From positions 2,604,001-2,668,000 of the forward strand of contig NC_019567.1 of NCBI RefSeq assembly GCF_000317895.1: a DNA stretch of 64,000 nucleotides, in the 5' to 3' direction. The position numbers and the translations under genes were made by a program. The notes beneath the pieces are model-generated. The model did no database searches, was not told where the DNA came from, and was given only the letters and a program-made list of their open reading frames with translations. Source of the DNA: Bdellovibrio bacteriovorus str. Tiberius (GTDB lineage Bacteria > Bdellovibrionota > Bdellovibrionia > Bdellovibrionales > Bdellovibrionaceae). Shown here piece by piece: positions 38,486 through 45,231 of the stretch. The stretch's first letter is position 1, and every line of letters starts with the position of its first letter.

Positions 38486-38514
38486 AAAGGGAACCTTCGG
38501 GTTCCCTTTTTTTA
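38486..38514. terminator. Intrinsic terminator with TTCG loop
   Basis: Stem AAAGGGAACC/GGTTCCCTTT with a TTCG tetraloop and T-run. Strong for the plus-strand small gene, usable by the convergent fibrinogen-like operon. Confidence 0.92.
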
Positions 38515-38534: not shown

Positions 38535-40004
38535 TTATTTCACCCAAAGTTCCACACGCGGAACACCGATAGAGCCTGCGCCCGTCACCGCATCTGATGC
38601 CGGAATCCCCGACGGAGTTCCATAGGTCGCACTTGCCAGCATTCCCACCGCATAGAACCAGTTCGAATGCCCGACCGAGCCTTCAGCCAGCGCCGATGTC
38701 ATGGCCCCGTTATATTCAAGACCGCCCCAATAGTTGGTGGTTGATTCCACAGTCACTGCCGTGTAGCCAGCAATCGCCTGCGAAGTGAAGTTGCTGGTCT
38801 GAGTCCACCAGTTACGAATTGAACTGCCCGAACCCGGCCAGTTGATTCGAAGCTCCAGTTTACCCGAACGATAGAAACCACCCACGCGTCCCATGATGGA
38901 ATAACGACCCGCCTGAGGTGCGCCTGAATTATAACTGAGTGCCTCTGCCGTGCTGGCAAACAGACCATCGGAAAAATTGTGATTCAGGATGCGTGTCCAG
39001 CCGCCACCATCTGTGGTCATGTCACAGTAAACCGGAATCGCACCGCCACCACCAGGGTTGATTGTGTATAATCCTGATCCGATGGATGCCCCGGCATCCA
39101 GAATGGCTTTGCAGGAATTGTAAGTCGTGTATGTGTCATCTTCCTTGATCCAAAGATTCACTTCCGCCACGCCAGCACCAGTTCCCAGAACTGCACCCGC
39201 AGAAGGAATACCTGCGGGCGTTCCATAAGCAACCGTGGATCCGATCGCGTACCACCAGTCCGGATACTGTACCGAACCATCCAGCAAAGAGTTATTATTG
39301 TTCACCGGACCGTGAGCCCCGTTCCCCAACTCCAAACCACCCCAACGATCAGTAATGGCCGTTGCCATGATCGGCACCCAGCCCGCAACTACAACGTCGT
39401 TCAAAGGATTTGTCGTTTGCAGCCAGATATTCTTATAAGCTGAATAGCCCGGCCAGGTCTGACGGAAGCGATACTTTCCGTTCGTCACAAAATCAGGAAT
39501 CTTCGTTAGTTGAGAGTAAAGATTTCCCGTCGGGGCACCGGTATTTTTCGACTGAGCATCTGTCGTACTGGCAAAATATCCACCGGCAATATTGTGGCGG
39601 AAGATCCGTGTCCAGCCACCCCCATCAGTCGTCATGTCACAATACGCTGAATAGGATCCATTTGCACCGGTACCATCGGAATCAATCGTGTAAAGCCCGT
39701 CCGCCGGGCTTCCCATCAGATCTTTGATCTCTTTGCAGGATTTTGGGTAACACTGGGTCGCGACAATAAACGCCGGCTTTGAGGCTCCGACAAACGTGGT
39801 CCATTCCGTCGATGTTTTTGTGGGCACAAAAAGATCACTGCTGGCGTGGTTGTTGGTAACAATGTAACAGGACCCTTGCGAAGAAACGTAAGGCAGATAA
39901 AGCCGTGTCGAGCCCCCGACCGGAATACGATAGCCTTCACTGAGAGTGTTTATTCCCAGCACAAATGGCACCATCATAATCATCAAGGCAATTCGCATTT
40001 TCAT
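38535..40004 (-). CDS. Secreted protein with two fibrinogen-like domains
   Basis: 489 residues with a signal peptide (about 1-18). Two tandem copies of a fibrinogen-like module each begin CK[EA]I, pass through GLYTI and reach the hallmark YCDMTTDGGGWTRI. Each continues to an RWGGLE or YWGGLE segment and a W[WF]YA[IV]G...YGTP end. Fibrinogen-like domains in animal lectins bind acetylated sugars and calcium. It is the last gene of the fibre operon, 18 bases after a paralogue, with a weak ribosome site. Probably a surface or secreted lectin; its ligand is unknown. Confidence 0.9.
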   Translation of the reverse strand: MKMRIALMIMMVPFVLGINTLSEGYRIPVGGSTRLYLPYVSSQGSCYIVTNNHASSDLFVPTKTSTEWTTFVGASKPAFIVATQCYPKSCKEIKDLMGSPADGLYTIDSDGTGANGSYSAYCDMTTDGGGWTRIFRHNIAGGYFASTTDAQSKNTGAPTGNLYSQLTKIPDFVTNGKYRFRQTWPGYSAYKNIWLQTTNPLNDVVVAGWVPIMATAITDRWGGLELGNGAHGPVNNNNSLLDGSVQYPDWWYAIGSTVAYGTPAGIPSAGAVLGTGAGVAEVNLWIKEDDTYTTYNSCKAILDAGASIGSGLYTINPGGGGAIPVYCDMTTDGGGWTRILNHNFSDGLFASTAEALSYNSGAPQAGRYSIMGRVGGFYRSGKLELRINWPGSGSSIRNWWTQTSNFTSQAIAGYTAVTVESTTNYWGGLEYNGAMTSALAEGSVGHSNWFYAVGMLASATYGTPSGIPASDAVTGAGSIGVPRVELWVK

Positions 40005-40022
40005 GTCTGTCCACGTCCCGTC

Positions 40023-41450
40023 TTAGCGAAGATAGAATTTAAAATTACACGCGTTACCCTTGCCACTGTAACACACTTCCGTCGCTTTATACGATGGCAC
40101 AATGCCTTCGTTACCTGAATTGAAGGCGATGTTAAAGGCATCCGAAGCACTGTAATTGTCATTGGCAGTTTGTCCCGCACAGCCGGCCGTCCGGCTGGTG
40201 TGACGAAGGTTCCCGGCACACTTGGTGCTGTTATAATTCCAGTTTCCGCCGGCCAAATCAATGATCGCAGCGCCCCCATTGTATGATGGAGACACAAACA
40301 TGGCATCCGTCGTGTTCACGGCAATTGAAAATGCCTCGACATTCACCGACGCCTGCTGAGACGCCATCACGTGTTTACCAGCCGCGGCCAGGTTGTAGGT
40401 GTTCACAAAAAAATCATTCGGCGTGGTGCCAGTCACCGCACCATTGGAATATGCCACCAACGTCCATCCGCCACCGGATGTCGTCATATCACAGTAAACA
40501 TCATAGGGTGCAGTGGCCCCGGCGCCATCAATGTCAATCGTATACAGTCCGTCGCCCTTGGAGGCTCCGGCTGCCAGGATCGCCTTACAGGAATTATAAA
40601 CCGCGTGGGTGTCATCGTCCTTCATCCACAGATTCACTTCGGCGACACCGTGGCTGGTTCCCAGCATTTCAGACGCGGGAATACCCACCGGTGTCGTGCC
40701 CCAGGACACATACGCCCCCACAGCATAATACCAGTTGGCATGATTGACAGAACCTTCGATATAAGCCGACGTCTGCGCCGGCCCGTGGGCACCGTTACCC
40801 AATTCAAGACCACCCCAATAGTTGGTATATCCCTGAACAAAAACTGTTTTATATCCTGCCACCACCACATCCGCAGTGGGATTGGTCGTCTGGAACCAGA
40901 TGTTTTTCAGGTCTTCCCCAGGCCAGGTCAGGCGGAACTGGTATTTGTTCCCGGCAGTTTTAAAATGATCGATTTTATTTAGAATAGAATACAGGTCCGC
41001 CGTCGGAGCCGTCGTATTTTTACTGCTGGCGTCCGTGGCATCGGCAAAATACCCGCCTGCGATATTGTGTTTGAACACGCGAGTCCATCCGCCACCATCA
41101 GTGGTCATGTCGCAGTAAACCGGATACGGAGAACTTCCCGTGGGATCGACGTAATAAATGCCGTCCCCTTCGGAACCATTGTTGTTCAAAATATCCAAAC
41201 AGGATCCACATTTAGTCAAAGAGACATTTGTGAGGGTGGCTGCACGGAATGCCGTCCATTCGGCAGCTGTTTTAGTGGGAACAAAAAAGTCCTTGTCCGC
41301 CGTGGCATTTACCACTTTCTTACAGACGCTATGAGCATTGATGGCCTTGGTCGTGCCACGATTCACCCGGTGACCGGTGTCCTGGGTGTTCAGTGCCACC
41401 AGCAACGGTGACACGGCTAGAATAAGAATGATCTTTCCAATGATCTTCAC
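40023..41450 (-). CDS. Secreted fibrinogen-like protein, paralogue of the next gene
   Basis: 475 residues, GTG start four bases after the fibre stop, so translation is probably coupled. Signal peptide (about 1-20). The first module has YCDMTTDGGGWTRVFKHN and aligns along its length with both modules of the downstream paralogue. The second has YCDMTTSGGGWTLVAYSN, but its C-terminal half differs (CSGKGNACNFKFYLR-like end), so it has a different second lobe. Many paired cysteines (CGSC, CKAI) suggest disulfides outside the cell. Confidence 0.9.
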   Translation of the reverse strand: MKIIGKIILILAVSPLLVALNTQDTGHRVNRGTTKAINAHSVCKKVVNATADKDFFVPTKTAAEWTAFRAATLTNVSLTKCGSCLDILNNNGSEGDGIYYVDPTGSSPYPVYCDMTTDGGGWTRVFKHNIAGGYFADATDASSKNTTAPTADLYSILNKIDHFKTAGNKYQFRLTWPGEDLKNIWFQTTNPTADVVVAGYKTVFVQGYTNYWGGLELGNGAHGPAQTSAYIEGSVNHANWYYAVGAYVSWGTTPVGIPASEMLGTSHGVAEVNLWMKDDDTHAVYNSCKAILAAGASKGDGLYTIDIDGAGATAPYDVYCDMTTSGGGWTLVAYSNGAVTGTTPNDFFVNTYNLAAAGKHVMASQQASVNVEAFSIAVNTTDAMFVSPSYNGGAAIIDLAGGNWNYNSTKCAGNLRHTSRTAGCAGQTANDNYSASDAFNIAFNSGNEGIVPSYKATEVCYSGKGNACNFKFYLR

Positions 41451-41454
41451 TGTC

Positions 41455-44400
41455 TTATTTTCCGTTCAGCATTGCTTTTTCAAGACGCTCCAGACGTGCT
41501 TTCAAATCCTGATTTTCCTGTTCAAGTTTTTTCAAACGACTGTCCGAAGATTCATTCACGCTAGCCAAACCACGGGACACCTGAGAAATCTGTCCCTGAC
41601 AAAGATCTTTGTCCTGCAGACGCTCTGCGTGTTCCTGCTTCAGAGCTTCCACCAAAACCGCCACGATGTTGCCGTACTGAACGGCCTTATAGCCAGACTG
41701 TTTGTCGGTGCGAACCAGTTCTGGATACACTGCTTCGACTTCCTGGGCGATGAAACCCATCGTTTTTTCGCCGTTGTTTTTCCAGACGAAGTTCACCCCG
41801 CGAAGTTTCAGAACGTTTTCCAGTGCCATCGGCAAAGTCACAACGTCTTTTTTCAGGCGCGCATCGGAAGTATACAGATACGAAGCAGCTTTGACGTTGC
41901 CATTGACTTCCAAAGCCTCGCTTGGCGCCGTGGTGTTGATACCGAAGAAACCTGTCGTCAGAATGGTCATTTTGGCCGTATTGCTCACACCGATTTGCAT
42001 CGAAGTTGCCACGCTGTTGGTGATACTTTTACCGACCGTGACTGTGTTGCCGGCAGAAACAATGTTGTCACGGCCCAAAACTACGGCGTTGCCCGAGTTG
42101 TTATTCACTGTATTACTGCGTCCGAACAAATCCAGAGCGATACTGAAGTTAAACAAACTGGTCGTAATGGCATTGTTCGAGCCAATAATGTTCATTACCG
42201 AAGCATTACCACCGCCAGAGTTCGTGATCGAGTTGGAGGCTCCAATGACATAGTTACTGGCGTCAGTAAACGTGGTATTCCCCGAACCAATGATCCCCGC
42301 ACCATTTACGTGCAAATGTGTGATCGGAGAGCTGACGCCGATACCCAGCTTACCTGCGGACGAGAGACGCATTTTTTCCGCGTTGCTGGTGTCAAAGATG
42401 ATATTACCGGCAACTCCATTGCTGATAAACAAATCATCCGAAGCTCCATCGCTATAGCCCACGGTCCCTTTCCAGGTGCCATTGCGAAGCATGTCGATGG
42501 AAGGAATACCCGACGCCACCGTATCCAGAATCAAAGGAGCCTGAGCCGCAGATGTCGTCTTGATGGCGATTTTGGCATTGGCATCCGGAGCCTGCCCCAC
42601 GCCCACATTACCTGTGGTGTCGACTGTGATACGAGTCGTACCCCCAGTTTCAAACTGCAGGCTTTGTGCATCGTTGGTACCGACTGTGGCTGCAGCACCA
42701 AAGCTGTTACCACCATTAACTAGAGCACTTGGGAAGTTGGCAGCACCGACGGCAATCGTCTGGCAAAGGAACGTGTCTGTGGCCGCATTATAATACATGG
42801 TTTGAGAAGTCGTACATGCCGAGTTTGCAAACACTCCGCCAAAGGGTGTGATCGTCGAACGGATGTCACCCACTTGCAGGAAGGATGGAGCGTACTGAGT
42901 GGTGCCATTGTAACGAAGCACCTGACCAGCGGCCGTCGGCGCCGTCGCACTGACCGCTGTGCTTTGAACTTTTGTCACGGTGAAAGCACCCGCATTGGTC
43001 ATGGTCACATCACCACTTGGTGCCACGGCTGTCGCCACGTTGGAAACGTTACCCACGCGGATATTCCCCGAGGTCAAAGTCGCTGAAAGTTTATTATTAA
43101 AGGTCGTCCAGTCCGCAGAAGCCAAATAACCATTTTGAGTTCCATTGGCCACTTGAATGCCAATATTTGGAGCTGCCGCCGTACCAGAATTCACAATCGG
43201 TGAAGTCACCGCCACACCCGACGTCACCGCCGGTGATGTCCAGGAAAGATTTCCAGAAGCATCCGTGGTCAGGACCTGATTGGCTGAACCCACCGCTGCC
43301 GGGAATCTAAGAACATAAGAAGTCGTCACCGTGTTCGGTGCCTGCAAAGTTACGGTGTTTGCACCCGTGTCCCGTAAAACCACAGAACCCAAACTTGCCG
43401 CTCCGGCAGCAAAGTTACCGGATCCATCACGTTTTACAATGGCGCTGGCTGTATTCAGATTTGTCGCCGCATTTGCAGCCACCGTCGCGGAATTCACGTT
43501 CGCTGCTGTTGAGCCACCAACAGAATTCACTGTCGCACTGACCGTGCCGTTACCGGAAGCGGTCACATCCCCCGTCAAAGCCGCAATCGTACCACCGGCC
43601 CCAGCCGAGGAAGCAATCGCCACCCAGGCCCCTGAGTTATATTGATAGATAACTTTCGTATCAGCGGCGAAATAAATCGCCCCGGCTGCCGGACTTGCAG
43701 GCTTGGCGGCGTCGTTACCTGACTGAATGCTTGGTGAACCTCCGGCATTCCCCACAAGAACTGTCGAATTCAAGGTGGCTGCAGAGCCCAACCCCAGATT
43801 AGTACGGGCTGTAGCGGCTGTTGCAGTCAGCTCACTCAAATTGTTTGCAGGATTCAGCGGTGTGAATCCCAGCGCATTTTGTTTGCCGTTAAAAGTGTTC
43901 CAGTCCGCAGAAGAAAGATAACCATTAGTTGACGTATTCGCTTGAGAAATCGAGATCACCGGGGTCGTCGTGCCTGTCGCCACAGAAATCGGCGCAGTGC
44001 CGGTCACATTCGTCACGGTACCGCCCGCATTGCTGTCAGCCGCGGCATACCAGCTGGTGCCATTGAATTTCAAAACCTGATTGTTCGTCGGTGCCACTGT
44101 GAAATCCAGCGGGTAACCTTTAATCTGAGCAACAACCGTCGCGCCTTGAGTGCCCGTCACATCACCAGCAAGACTTCCCAGGAAGTTCGTCGCCTGAGTT
44201 GCAGACCCCACAGCCAATGAAGATTGATTTGTACACTGCCAGCCCAAAGCCACAGACCAGGTCAGTAATTGATTGGCACCACAAGAAAGCGGCGCCAGCG
44301 TCGCCCCCGTTGAAGAATCCGTCATCACCAGACGACTGATTCCAGGGTTTGCAAAAAGCTTTTCCGTAGTCACTGCACCCGCAGCAATTTTAGGTGTTGT

Positions 44401-45231
44401 CACCGTATTGTCAGCAAGGCCAGGATTTGGATATGTACCCGTCAAAGCCCCACCCGCAGCCCCATTGGGCGCACGAGAATCAGTGAAACGCGCATCATTA
44501 CCCGCAGCCACAGTGCCCGCCACCGTGCCAACGTTCAAGGTGATCAACGGTGTGACCGTGTCAGCAGAAACTGTCAGATAAGGGTTGCTGCCCGCAGAAG
44601 CTGCCACGGACTGAACCGTACCGCCGCTGGCACCAGAAACACCCGCACAACCAAATTCCTTGGTCGCGGCATTCCAGGTCAGGAAGCTGCCAGCACCGCA
44701 ATCAGCACCCGCATTGACTTCGGTCTTCATCACAAAGTCAGTTGCCACATGCGAACCCAACGTCGCCGCGGAAGAAGCAAAACCTGCGAAAGGAACGGTG
44801 CGAATTTCATTGTCCGGAGAAATCGTCTGCCATTGGGAACCATCATGGAATTTCACACGCAGGAAGCGGCCATCAGTCAGACCCGGATTGTAAGGTGAAC
44901 CCCCGTCACACACGAAGGGATTGCCGTTGTTAAACGCATCCAGGATCGTGAAGGTCGGAGCCCCAGGGTAACTGTGCGAAGATCCGATCTTGACGTCGAA
45001 CACCCCGCCTGAGTTTGTCATGTCGATGTGATTCAGTTGTTCCCGGTAAAGAACGCAGACCTTGTTCGGCGCCAGAATTTCAAACTGGAAGGCGACCGCG
45101 TTGTATTCCAGCGGTGCTCCGCTGCTTTTAACGATGCGTCCTTGATAAGTCAGCGCCGCCGGGCTGGCATAAGCCACCGTTGTTAAAAGGCTAACAAAGA
45201 AAAGTGCCGTTAACGTTCCGTAGTTTTTCAT
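41455..45231 (-). CDS. Phage-tail-fibre-like trimeric adhesin with S74 chaperone domain
   Basis: 1258 residues. Signal peptide, then an N-terminal domain (ALTYQGRIVKSSGAPLEYNAV) and a long Gly/Ala/Thr/Asn-rich fibre. Repeated segments of the form YL[SA]SADW[NT]TFN and G[ND]VT-type strands resemble phage fibre shafts. The C-terminus is an S74 intramolecular chaperone beginning SDARLKKD (Ser at about 1122, the expected self-cleavage point), with MGFIAQEVEAVYPELV and a final coiled coil. This matches the mosaic trimeric fibres described in Bdellovibrio. It heads an operon with two fibrinogen-like genes. No Shine-Dalgarno is visible. Confidence 0.92.
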   Translation of the reverse strand: MKNYGTLTALFFVSLLTTVAYASPAALTYQGRIVKSSGAPLEYNAVAFQFEILAPNKVCVLYREQLNHIDMTNSGGVFDVKIGSSHSYPGAPTFTILDAFNNGNPFVCDGGSPYNPGLTDGRFLRVKFHDGSQWQTISPDNEIRTVPFAGFASSAATLGSHVATDFVMKTEVNAGADCGAGSFLTWNAATKEFGCAGVSGASGGTVQSVAASAGSNPYLTVSADTVTPLITLNVGTVAGTVAAGNDARFTDSRAPNGAAGGALTGTYPNPGLADNTVTTPKIAAGAVTTEKLFANPGISRLVMTDSSTGATLAPLSCGANQLLTWSVALGWQCTNQSSLAVGSATQATNFLGSLAGDVTGTQGATVVAQIKGYPLDFTVAPTNNQVLKFNGTSWYAAADSNAGGTVTNVTGTAPISVATGTTTPVISISQANTSTNGYLSSADWNTFNGKQNALGFTPLNPANNLSELTATAATARTNLGLGSAATLNSTVLVGNAGGSPSIQSGNDAAKPASPAAGAIYFAADTKVIYQYNSGAWVAIASSAGAGGTIAALTGDVTASGNGTVSATVNSVGGSTAANVNSATVAANAATNLNTASAIVKRDGSGNFAAGAASLGSVVLRDTGANTVTLQAPNTVTTSYVLRFPAAVGSANQVLTTDASGNLSWTSPAVTSGVAVTSPIVNSGTAAAPNIGIQVANGTQNGYLASADWTTFNNKLSATLTSGNIRVGNVSNVATAVAPSGDVTMTNAGAFTVTKVQSTAVSATAPTAAGQVLRYNGTTQYAPSFLQVGDIRSTITPFGGVFANSACTTSQTMYYNAATDTFLCQTIAVGAANFPSALVNGGNSFGAAATVGTNDAQSLQFETGGTTRITVDTTGNVGVGQAPDANAKIAIKTTSAAQAPLILDTVASGIPSIDMLRNGTWKGTVGYSDGASDDLFISNGVAGNIIFDTSNAEKMRLSSAGKLGIGVSSPITHLHVNGAGIIGSGNTTFTDASNYVIGASNSITNSGGGNASVMNIIGSNNAITTSLFNFSIALDLFGRSNTVNNNSGNAVVLGRDNIVSAGNTVTVGKSITNSVATSMQIGVSNTAKMTILTTGFFGINTTAPSEALEVNGNVKAASYLYTSDARLKKDVVTLPMALENVLKLRGVNFVWKNNGEKTMGFIAQEVEAVYPELVRTDKQSGYKAVQYGNIVAVLVEALKQEHAERLQDKDLCQGQISQVSRGLASVNESSDSRLKKLEQENQDLKARLERLEKAMLNGK

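Follow-up and report, generated by a model that had tools for sequence, protein, structure and literature searches.

Fibrinogen-like partner proteins encoded behind an S74-type MAT fibre of Bdellovibrio bacteriovorus as candidate tips of the fibre

The locus analysed here raises the question of what two predicted secreted proteins with fibrinogen-like (FReD) modules might do directly behind the gene of a trimeric-fibre-like protein in a predatory bacterium. It lies within a 64,000-nucleotide stretch of the B. bacteriovorus str. Tiberius genome (hereafter the window; contig NC_019567.1, positions 2,604,001 to 2,668,000); all genes and domains below are on its minus strand. We confirmed the three-gene operon that the original prediction had described, running from 45231 down to 38535: an S74-type MAT fibre gene (41455..45231; 1258 aa, one of 17 MAT genes) is followed after 4 bases by partner 1 (40023..41450; 475 aa, GTG start) and after a further gap of 18 bases by partner 2 (38535..40004; 489 aa). 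Behind the third gene, a terminator-like inverted repeat of 10 pairs (38486..38509, no strand assigned) is accompanied by a T run on the plus strand and, on the operon strand, by an A-rich stretch before the stem; judged by its sequence, it can serve as a putative intrinsic terminator of the operon. We counted 17 MAT domains in the complete 3.99 Mb genome and just four GGGWT modules; a chance adjacency of FReD modules and MAT is excluded because all four of these modules are found at this operon.

The N-terminal part of the fibre matches NCBIfam Bdello_MAT_N (NF053851; 215 bits, cut-off 60), and this domain (residues 12-170, 44722..45198) is presumed to form the predator-proximal end, a role taken from PMC10769870. 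The C-terminal part matches Pfam Peptidase_S74 (57.5 bits, cut-off 22) and contains the SDxxxK motif of the S74 subgroup, here SDARLKK. The predicted self-cleaving chaperone domain starts at the serine of this motif, S1122 (41704..41868), and the segment shows similarity to the gp37 chain in PDB entry 6F45 (E 0.0013). It is followed by a C-terminal tail with a coiled-coil-like end (41458..41703), of a subtype that sequence comparison finds to be common to partnered fibres; S74 and tail together are the most conserved region among these. Matches to both families thus support the 1258-residue fibre with an S74 end that had been anticipated. The protein shares its MAT N-terminal domain, trimeric-fibre-like repeats and S74 end with SDxxxK with MAT fibres of the S74 subgroup such as Bd3182, for which PMC10769870 demonstrates trimerisation and a self-cleavage that cuts the S74 domain off. 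By analogy, the window's fibre is predicted to trim its own end through S74. If cleavage proceeds here as in Bd3182, the stretch preceding the cut, APSEALEVNGNVKAASYLYT (residues 1102-1121, 41869..41928), a candidate docking end identified by motif comparison, would become the distal end of the mature fibre. The MATs described in that source have their tip in the same chain, whereas the window's operon has a separately encoded tip candidate; the text covered says nothing of a tip partner with a gene of its own.

Each partner contains two modules that match NCBIfam GGGWT_bact (132 and 116 bits) and each also matches Pfam Fibrinogen_C (59.8 and 54.1 bits, cut-off 22), so that the four fibrinogen-like modules of the original prediction are indeed present, two per protein, the profile matches spanning about the first 46-50 residues of each. 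In partner 1, module 1 covers residues about 83-281 (40608..41204) and module 2 (40026..40598) is of a divergent type ending CYSGKG...FYLR; in partner 2, the modules lie at 39132..39743 and 38538..39122. A structure model of partner 1 built from 41 aligned sequences reached a mean pLDDT of 89.3 and a pTM of 0.86 (a shallower alignment of 21 sequences gave a pLDDT of 62). When this model was aligned with VIA-align, module 1 superposed on the angiopoietin-1 FReD over 191 residues (Z 15.1, rmsd 3.2), and on the FReDs of angiopoietin, tenascin, FIBCD1 and ficolin with Z 14-15, matches that Foldseek also returned; the VIA rows mainly cover residues 41-281 of the protein. As modelled, this first module adopts the complete FReD fold, beyond the 46-residue motif. 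The likeness to ficolins, FIBCD1 and tachylectin 5A resides in this fold (Z 14-15). In contrast to those lectins, the modules of the partners stand in tandem behind a different N-terminal domain, and a search at the level of sequence patterns found no calcium-loop pattern DxDx[DNS] in orthologous partners. The suggestion that the modules bind acetylated sugars therefore keeps its fold, at least for module 1, but is unsupported as to ligand, and ficolin-type recognition of acetyl groups by the partners seems a weak proposition from their sequences. The YCDxxxxGGGW domain is common to the partners and to the proteins of NCBIfam NF040941 (GGGWT_bact), but in related genera most of the latter are built as lipoproteins or as repeat proteins, with neither the N-terminal domain of the partners nor a fibre neighbour. 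A 993-aa lipoprotein-like repeat protein with a single terminal GGGWT module (L045:1676-4657, L058:1762-4743) lies outside the fibre system.

Both partners open, after a signal-peptide-like stretch, with a conserved domain of about 62 residues that had escaped the original prediction (the N-domain, an adaptor candidate; INTxxxGYxV...C...FVPTKTxxEWxxF...C). Alignments place it at residues 20-81 of partner 1 (41208..41393) and 18-85 of partner 2 (39750..39953). In both proteins it had zero matches in Pfam and NCBIfam scans, and none by sequence among PDB chains (6F45 included, E up to 10), among 50,697 phage records or in IMG/VR. A phage or prophage origin was rejected, since the N-domain is without a match in the phage records and IMG/VR; the only phage resemblance is limited to a short C-terminal segment of the FReD module, which is similar to gp35 of KVP40-like Vibrio phages, and in KVP40 itself (AY283928.2, 240048-240206) this gp35 hinge connector shares 48% over 54 aa. 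The cargo behind the N-domain varies from locus to locus and includes FReD modules, poly-glycine (Gly_rich_2), TIG, LVIVD beta-propeller and cysteine-rich segments (the Gly_rich_2, TIG and LVIVD domains were identified as such), in partners of up to 1200 aa with signal-peptide-like N-termini. It is the N-domain that defines the wider system. It is not specific to MAT fibres, since it occurs in Patescibacteria, nor strictly tied to S74, since many solo N-domain genes exist.

We analysed the recurrence of the gene pair within the genus. One or two partners directly follow a MAT gene in nine genomes and five genomic contexts, three of them with the order of the window (G000, G005, G023) and six with a single partner (G001, G008, G018, G017, G004, G019). 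In G012 the order is reversed, with a small lipoprotein gene between partner and MAT, and in G015 both partners are kept, whereas only the tail is left of the MAT gene. There, a regulator-like ORF start is joined to the MAT coiled-coil tail (L054:5806-6510), which is the scar of the deletion that removed the fibre and left the partners. The S74-plus-tail subtype of the window occurs, above a clear score gap, in 12 of the 24 genus genomes, ten of which have it adjoining a partner, while the partners of the other two (G006, G020) are unlinked. With G015 counted as a remnant, 13 of the 24 genomes have both the subtype and N-domain FReD proteins and 11 have neither, so that presence of the two agrees in 24/24 genomes, a count in which kinship is ignored. 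Two other genomes (G002, G013) encode a MAT with a FReD as its own C-terminus and no S74, and have no N-domain gene; fibres of this build, which the original prediction had also missed and whose own tip is a FReD domain, lie at L046:3530-6745 and L053:3625-6882. The idea of fibre and fibrinogen-like partners as a unit whose gene order recurs in other predators is borne out by this pairing: far from lacking a fibre in most genomes, the partners adjoin an intact MAT at ten genus loci and a MAT remnant at one, and two genomes have the FReD-MAT fusion. Small lipoproteins with a C-S-x-E-A-x-L-like start are encoded beside several MAT genes, often with an overlap of the MAT start (L012:1713-1997, L013:1390-1956, L010:11667-11945, L002:10731-11081, L052:7612-7893), and are candidates for the surface anchor of MAT fibres.

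The pairing extends beyond the genus. In a second, Bacteriovoracaceae-like family (f16), whose named records are MAGs of Bacteriovoracaceae and Halobacteriovoraceae, every one of the 17 multi-module FReD loci directly follows a same-strand fibre gene, and the two genes often overlap by 4 bases. All 17 of these fibres proved to have an S74 end, and some of them match the MAT domain weakly (24-30 bits). In each of the ten f16 genomes tested, it was the partnered fibre that matched the S74 end of the window's fibre best. N-domain genes with cargo other than FReD stand directly behind S74 fibres at 11 loci in Bdellovibrionota, and about 29 of the 40 such loci examined there have no adjoining S74 fibre gene. 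Of about 20 N-domain loci in a Gracilibacteria-like class of Patescibacteria, 15 have an S74 gene in front of the N-domain gene; these add to the Patescibacteria loci found first. Each of eight Patescibacteria genomes examined contains one or two S74 genes, and the domain is rare in the group, occurring in 1 of 287 evenly drawn genomes and in 17 of 242 from the richer class. Single-chain fibre-like proteins with GGGWT modules were also seen in Myxococcota and Patescibacteria (L125:5038-7143, L148:4675-6693, L117, L122); L125 gives a match to the MAT domain (38.6 bits) as well as to a collagen-like pattern, and collagen-like repeats are present in L117. Four contigs titled as Klebsiella pneumoniae MAGs (L121, L145, L150, L152) encode GGGWT or MAT-like proteins unlike that species and are probably mislabelled bins.

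The solo genes bear on a first alternative, which takes the partners to be secreted lectins, free or with an anchor of their own, that are linked to the fibre only by co-transcription, the N-domain being a generic surface module. In Bdellovibrionota, N-domain genes are often preceded by unrelated genes, and solo FReD partners are present in G012, G017, G006 and G020; the N-domain may hence also act by itself or with fibres encoded at a distance. The close pairing in different phyla, the fibre-end motif described below and the covalent FReD-MAT fusions all go against this alternative, which we regard as unlikely. The fusions, which lack S74 and occur in genomes without N-domain genes, would by their sequence architecture count in favour of the partners being fibre tips.

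We compared the fibre ends just before the cleavage serine. The pattern [YF][LE][YT]T is present there in all 29 fibres partnered with GGGWT proteins and in 1 of 74 first-pass unlinked fibres. A broader pattern, [FY]x[YT]x|SD, was found in 56 of 58 linked against 3 of 71 unlinked fibres, the linked class here including three first-pass unlinked fibres that adjoin N-domain genes without FReD, those of G006 and G020, whose partners are elsewhere in the genome, and that of G017, of which only the C-terminal part was used (its gene was joined across contig ends). By class, the pattern was present in 29/29 fibres with FReD cargo, 9/11 with other cargo and 18/18 from Patescibacteria. Clustering at 60% identity left 30 of 32 linked against 3 of 43 unlinked (Fisher 3e-15, a descriptive value given that the pattern was derived from the same sequences). 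Most unlinked controls had been picked by similarity to the window's own end, and the contrast is conservative in that respect. The N-domains diverge most in two f16 units, the same two whose fibres deviate in ending with YLTT. The motif could be an ancestral S74 state that was lost in tip-swapped fibres.

A precedent for a separate tip protein exists in phages. In T2-type phages and S16, the adhesin gp38 caps the gp37 fibre, sitting on its tip and contacting gp37 through its N-terminus (PMC12892980, PMC10175313). The likeness to this pair (PDB 6F45) lies in an S74-like fibre gene followed by a separately encoded partner gene, and some N-domain partners elsewhere have a Gly_rich_2 domain. The differences are that the window encodes a bacterial surface fibre with FReD cargo and an N-domain without phage or PDB match. 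Together with the pre-cleavage motif, this precedent makes the separate tip subunit of the original prediction the best reading, in which the physical docking itself is a step that we infer. The fibre would be exported and folded with the help of the S74 chaperone, which would then cut itself off at S1122, leaving distal chains that end in ...NVKAASYLYT. The N-domain of a partner would dock on this exposed end and present its two FReD modules as a prey-contacting head, the two partners serving as alternative or joint tip proteins of the trimeric MAT fibre. Cleavage of the window's fibre, docking, surface display and receptor binding are all inferred here.

Where on the fibre the N-domain would dock is less clear-cut, since its divergence correlates with that of the S74 domain (Mantel r 0.55-0.77), a correlation no weaker than that with the tip 20-mer; this could come from docking on S74 or simply from co-inheritance. 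The partner might accordingly bind an S74 domain that is uncleaved or kept on the fibre, or its coiled coil, rather than the trimmed tip, a reading that draws on the same correlation and on the conservation of S74 and tail among partnered fibres. In Bd3182, however, the S74 domain is cut off (PMC10769870), and the aromatic motif belongs to the part that the cut would leave on the fibre, and we hold this second alternative to be distinctly improbable. The covariation with S74 would also suit a partner acting as an assembly chaperone, with its modules serving another role, much as T4 gp38 is a chaperone encoded beside gp37 (PMC12892980, PMC10175313). But S74 is itself already a chaperone, and the partners have signal-peptide-like N-termini, reach 1200 aa and bear very varied cargo, which makes this third alternative very doubtful. 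We conclude that the operon probably encodes a MAT fibre, trimmed at its own end by S74, together with two partners that dock through their N-domains as FReD tips. With the same adaptor and other cargo in other bacteria, tips would be exchangeable without change to the fibre. We also lean towards the view that these loci represent an undescribed general two-gene adhesin system of predatory Bdellovibrionota and Patescibacteria, made up of a self-trimming S74 fibre with an aromatic C-terminal motif and of exchangeable tips joined to it by the adaptor of about 62 residues.

Each of the parts, the MAT fibres, the FReDs and the tip adhesins of phages, is already known; in the literature searched, we found no description of the pair of fibre and FReD partner, of the adaptor domain or of the predictive motif. 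To the question of how predatory bacteria recognise varied prey, MAT fibres currently offer the answer with the best support. If the proposed docking is true, non-covalent change of the tip would widen the fibre repertoire and explain the presence of fibrinogen-like proteins in predators, and a short motif and a small domain would predict which fibres bear separate tips. Many Patescibacteria live on other bacteria, and the same pairing in this group suggests a shared attachment device. Docking of this kind would extend the gp37/gp38 principle of phages to the surface fibres of cells.
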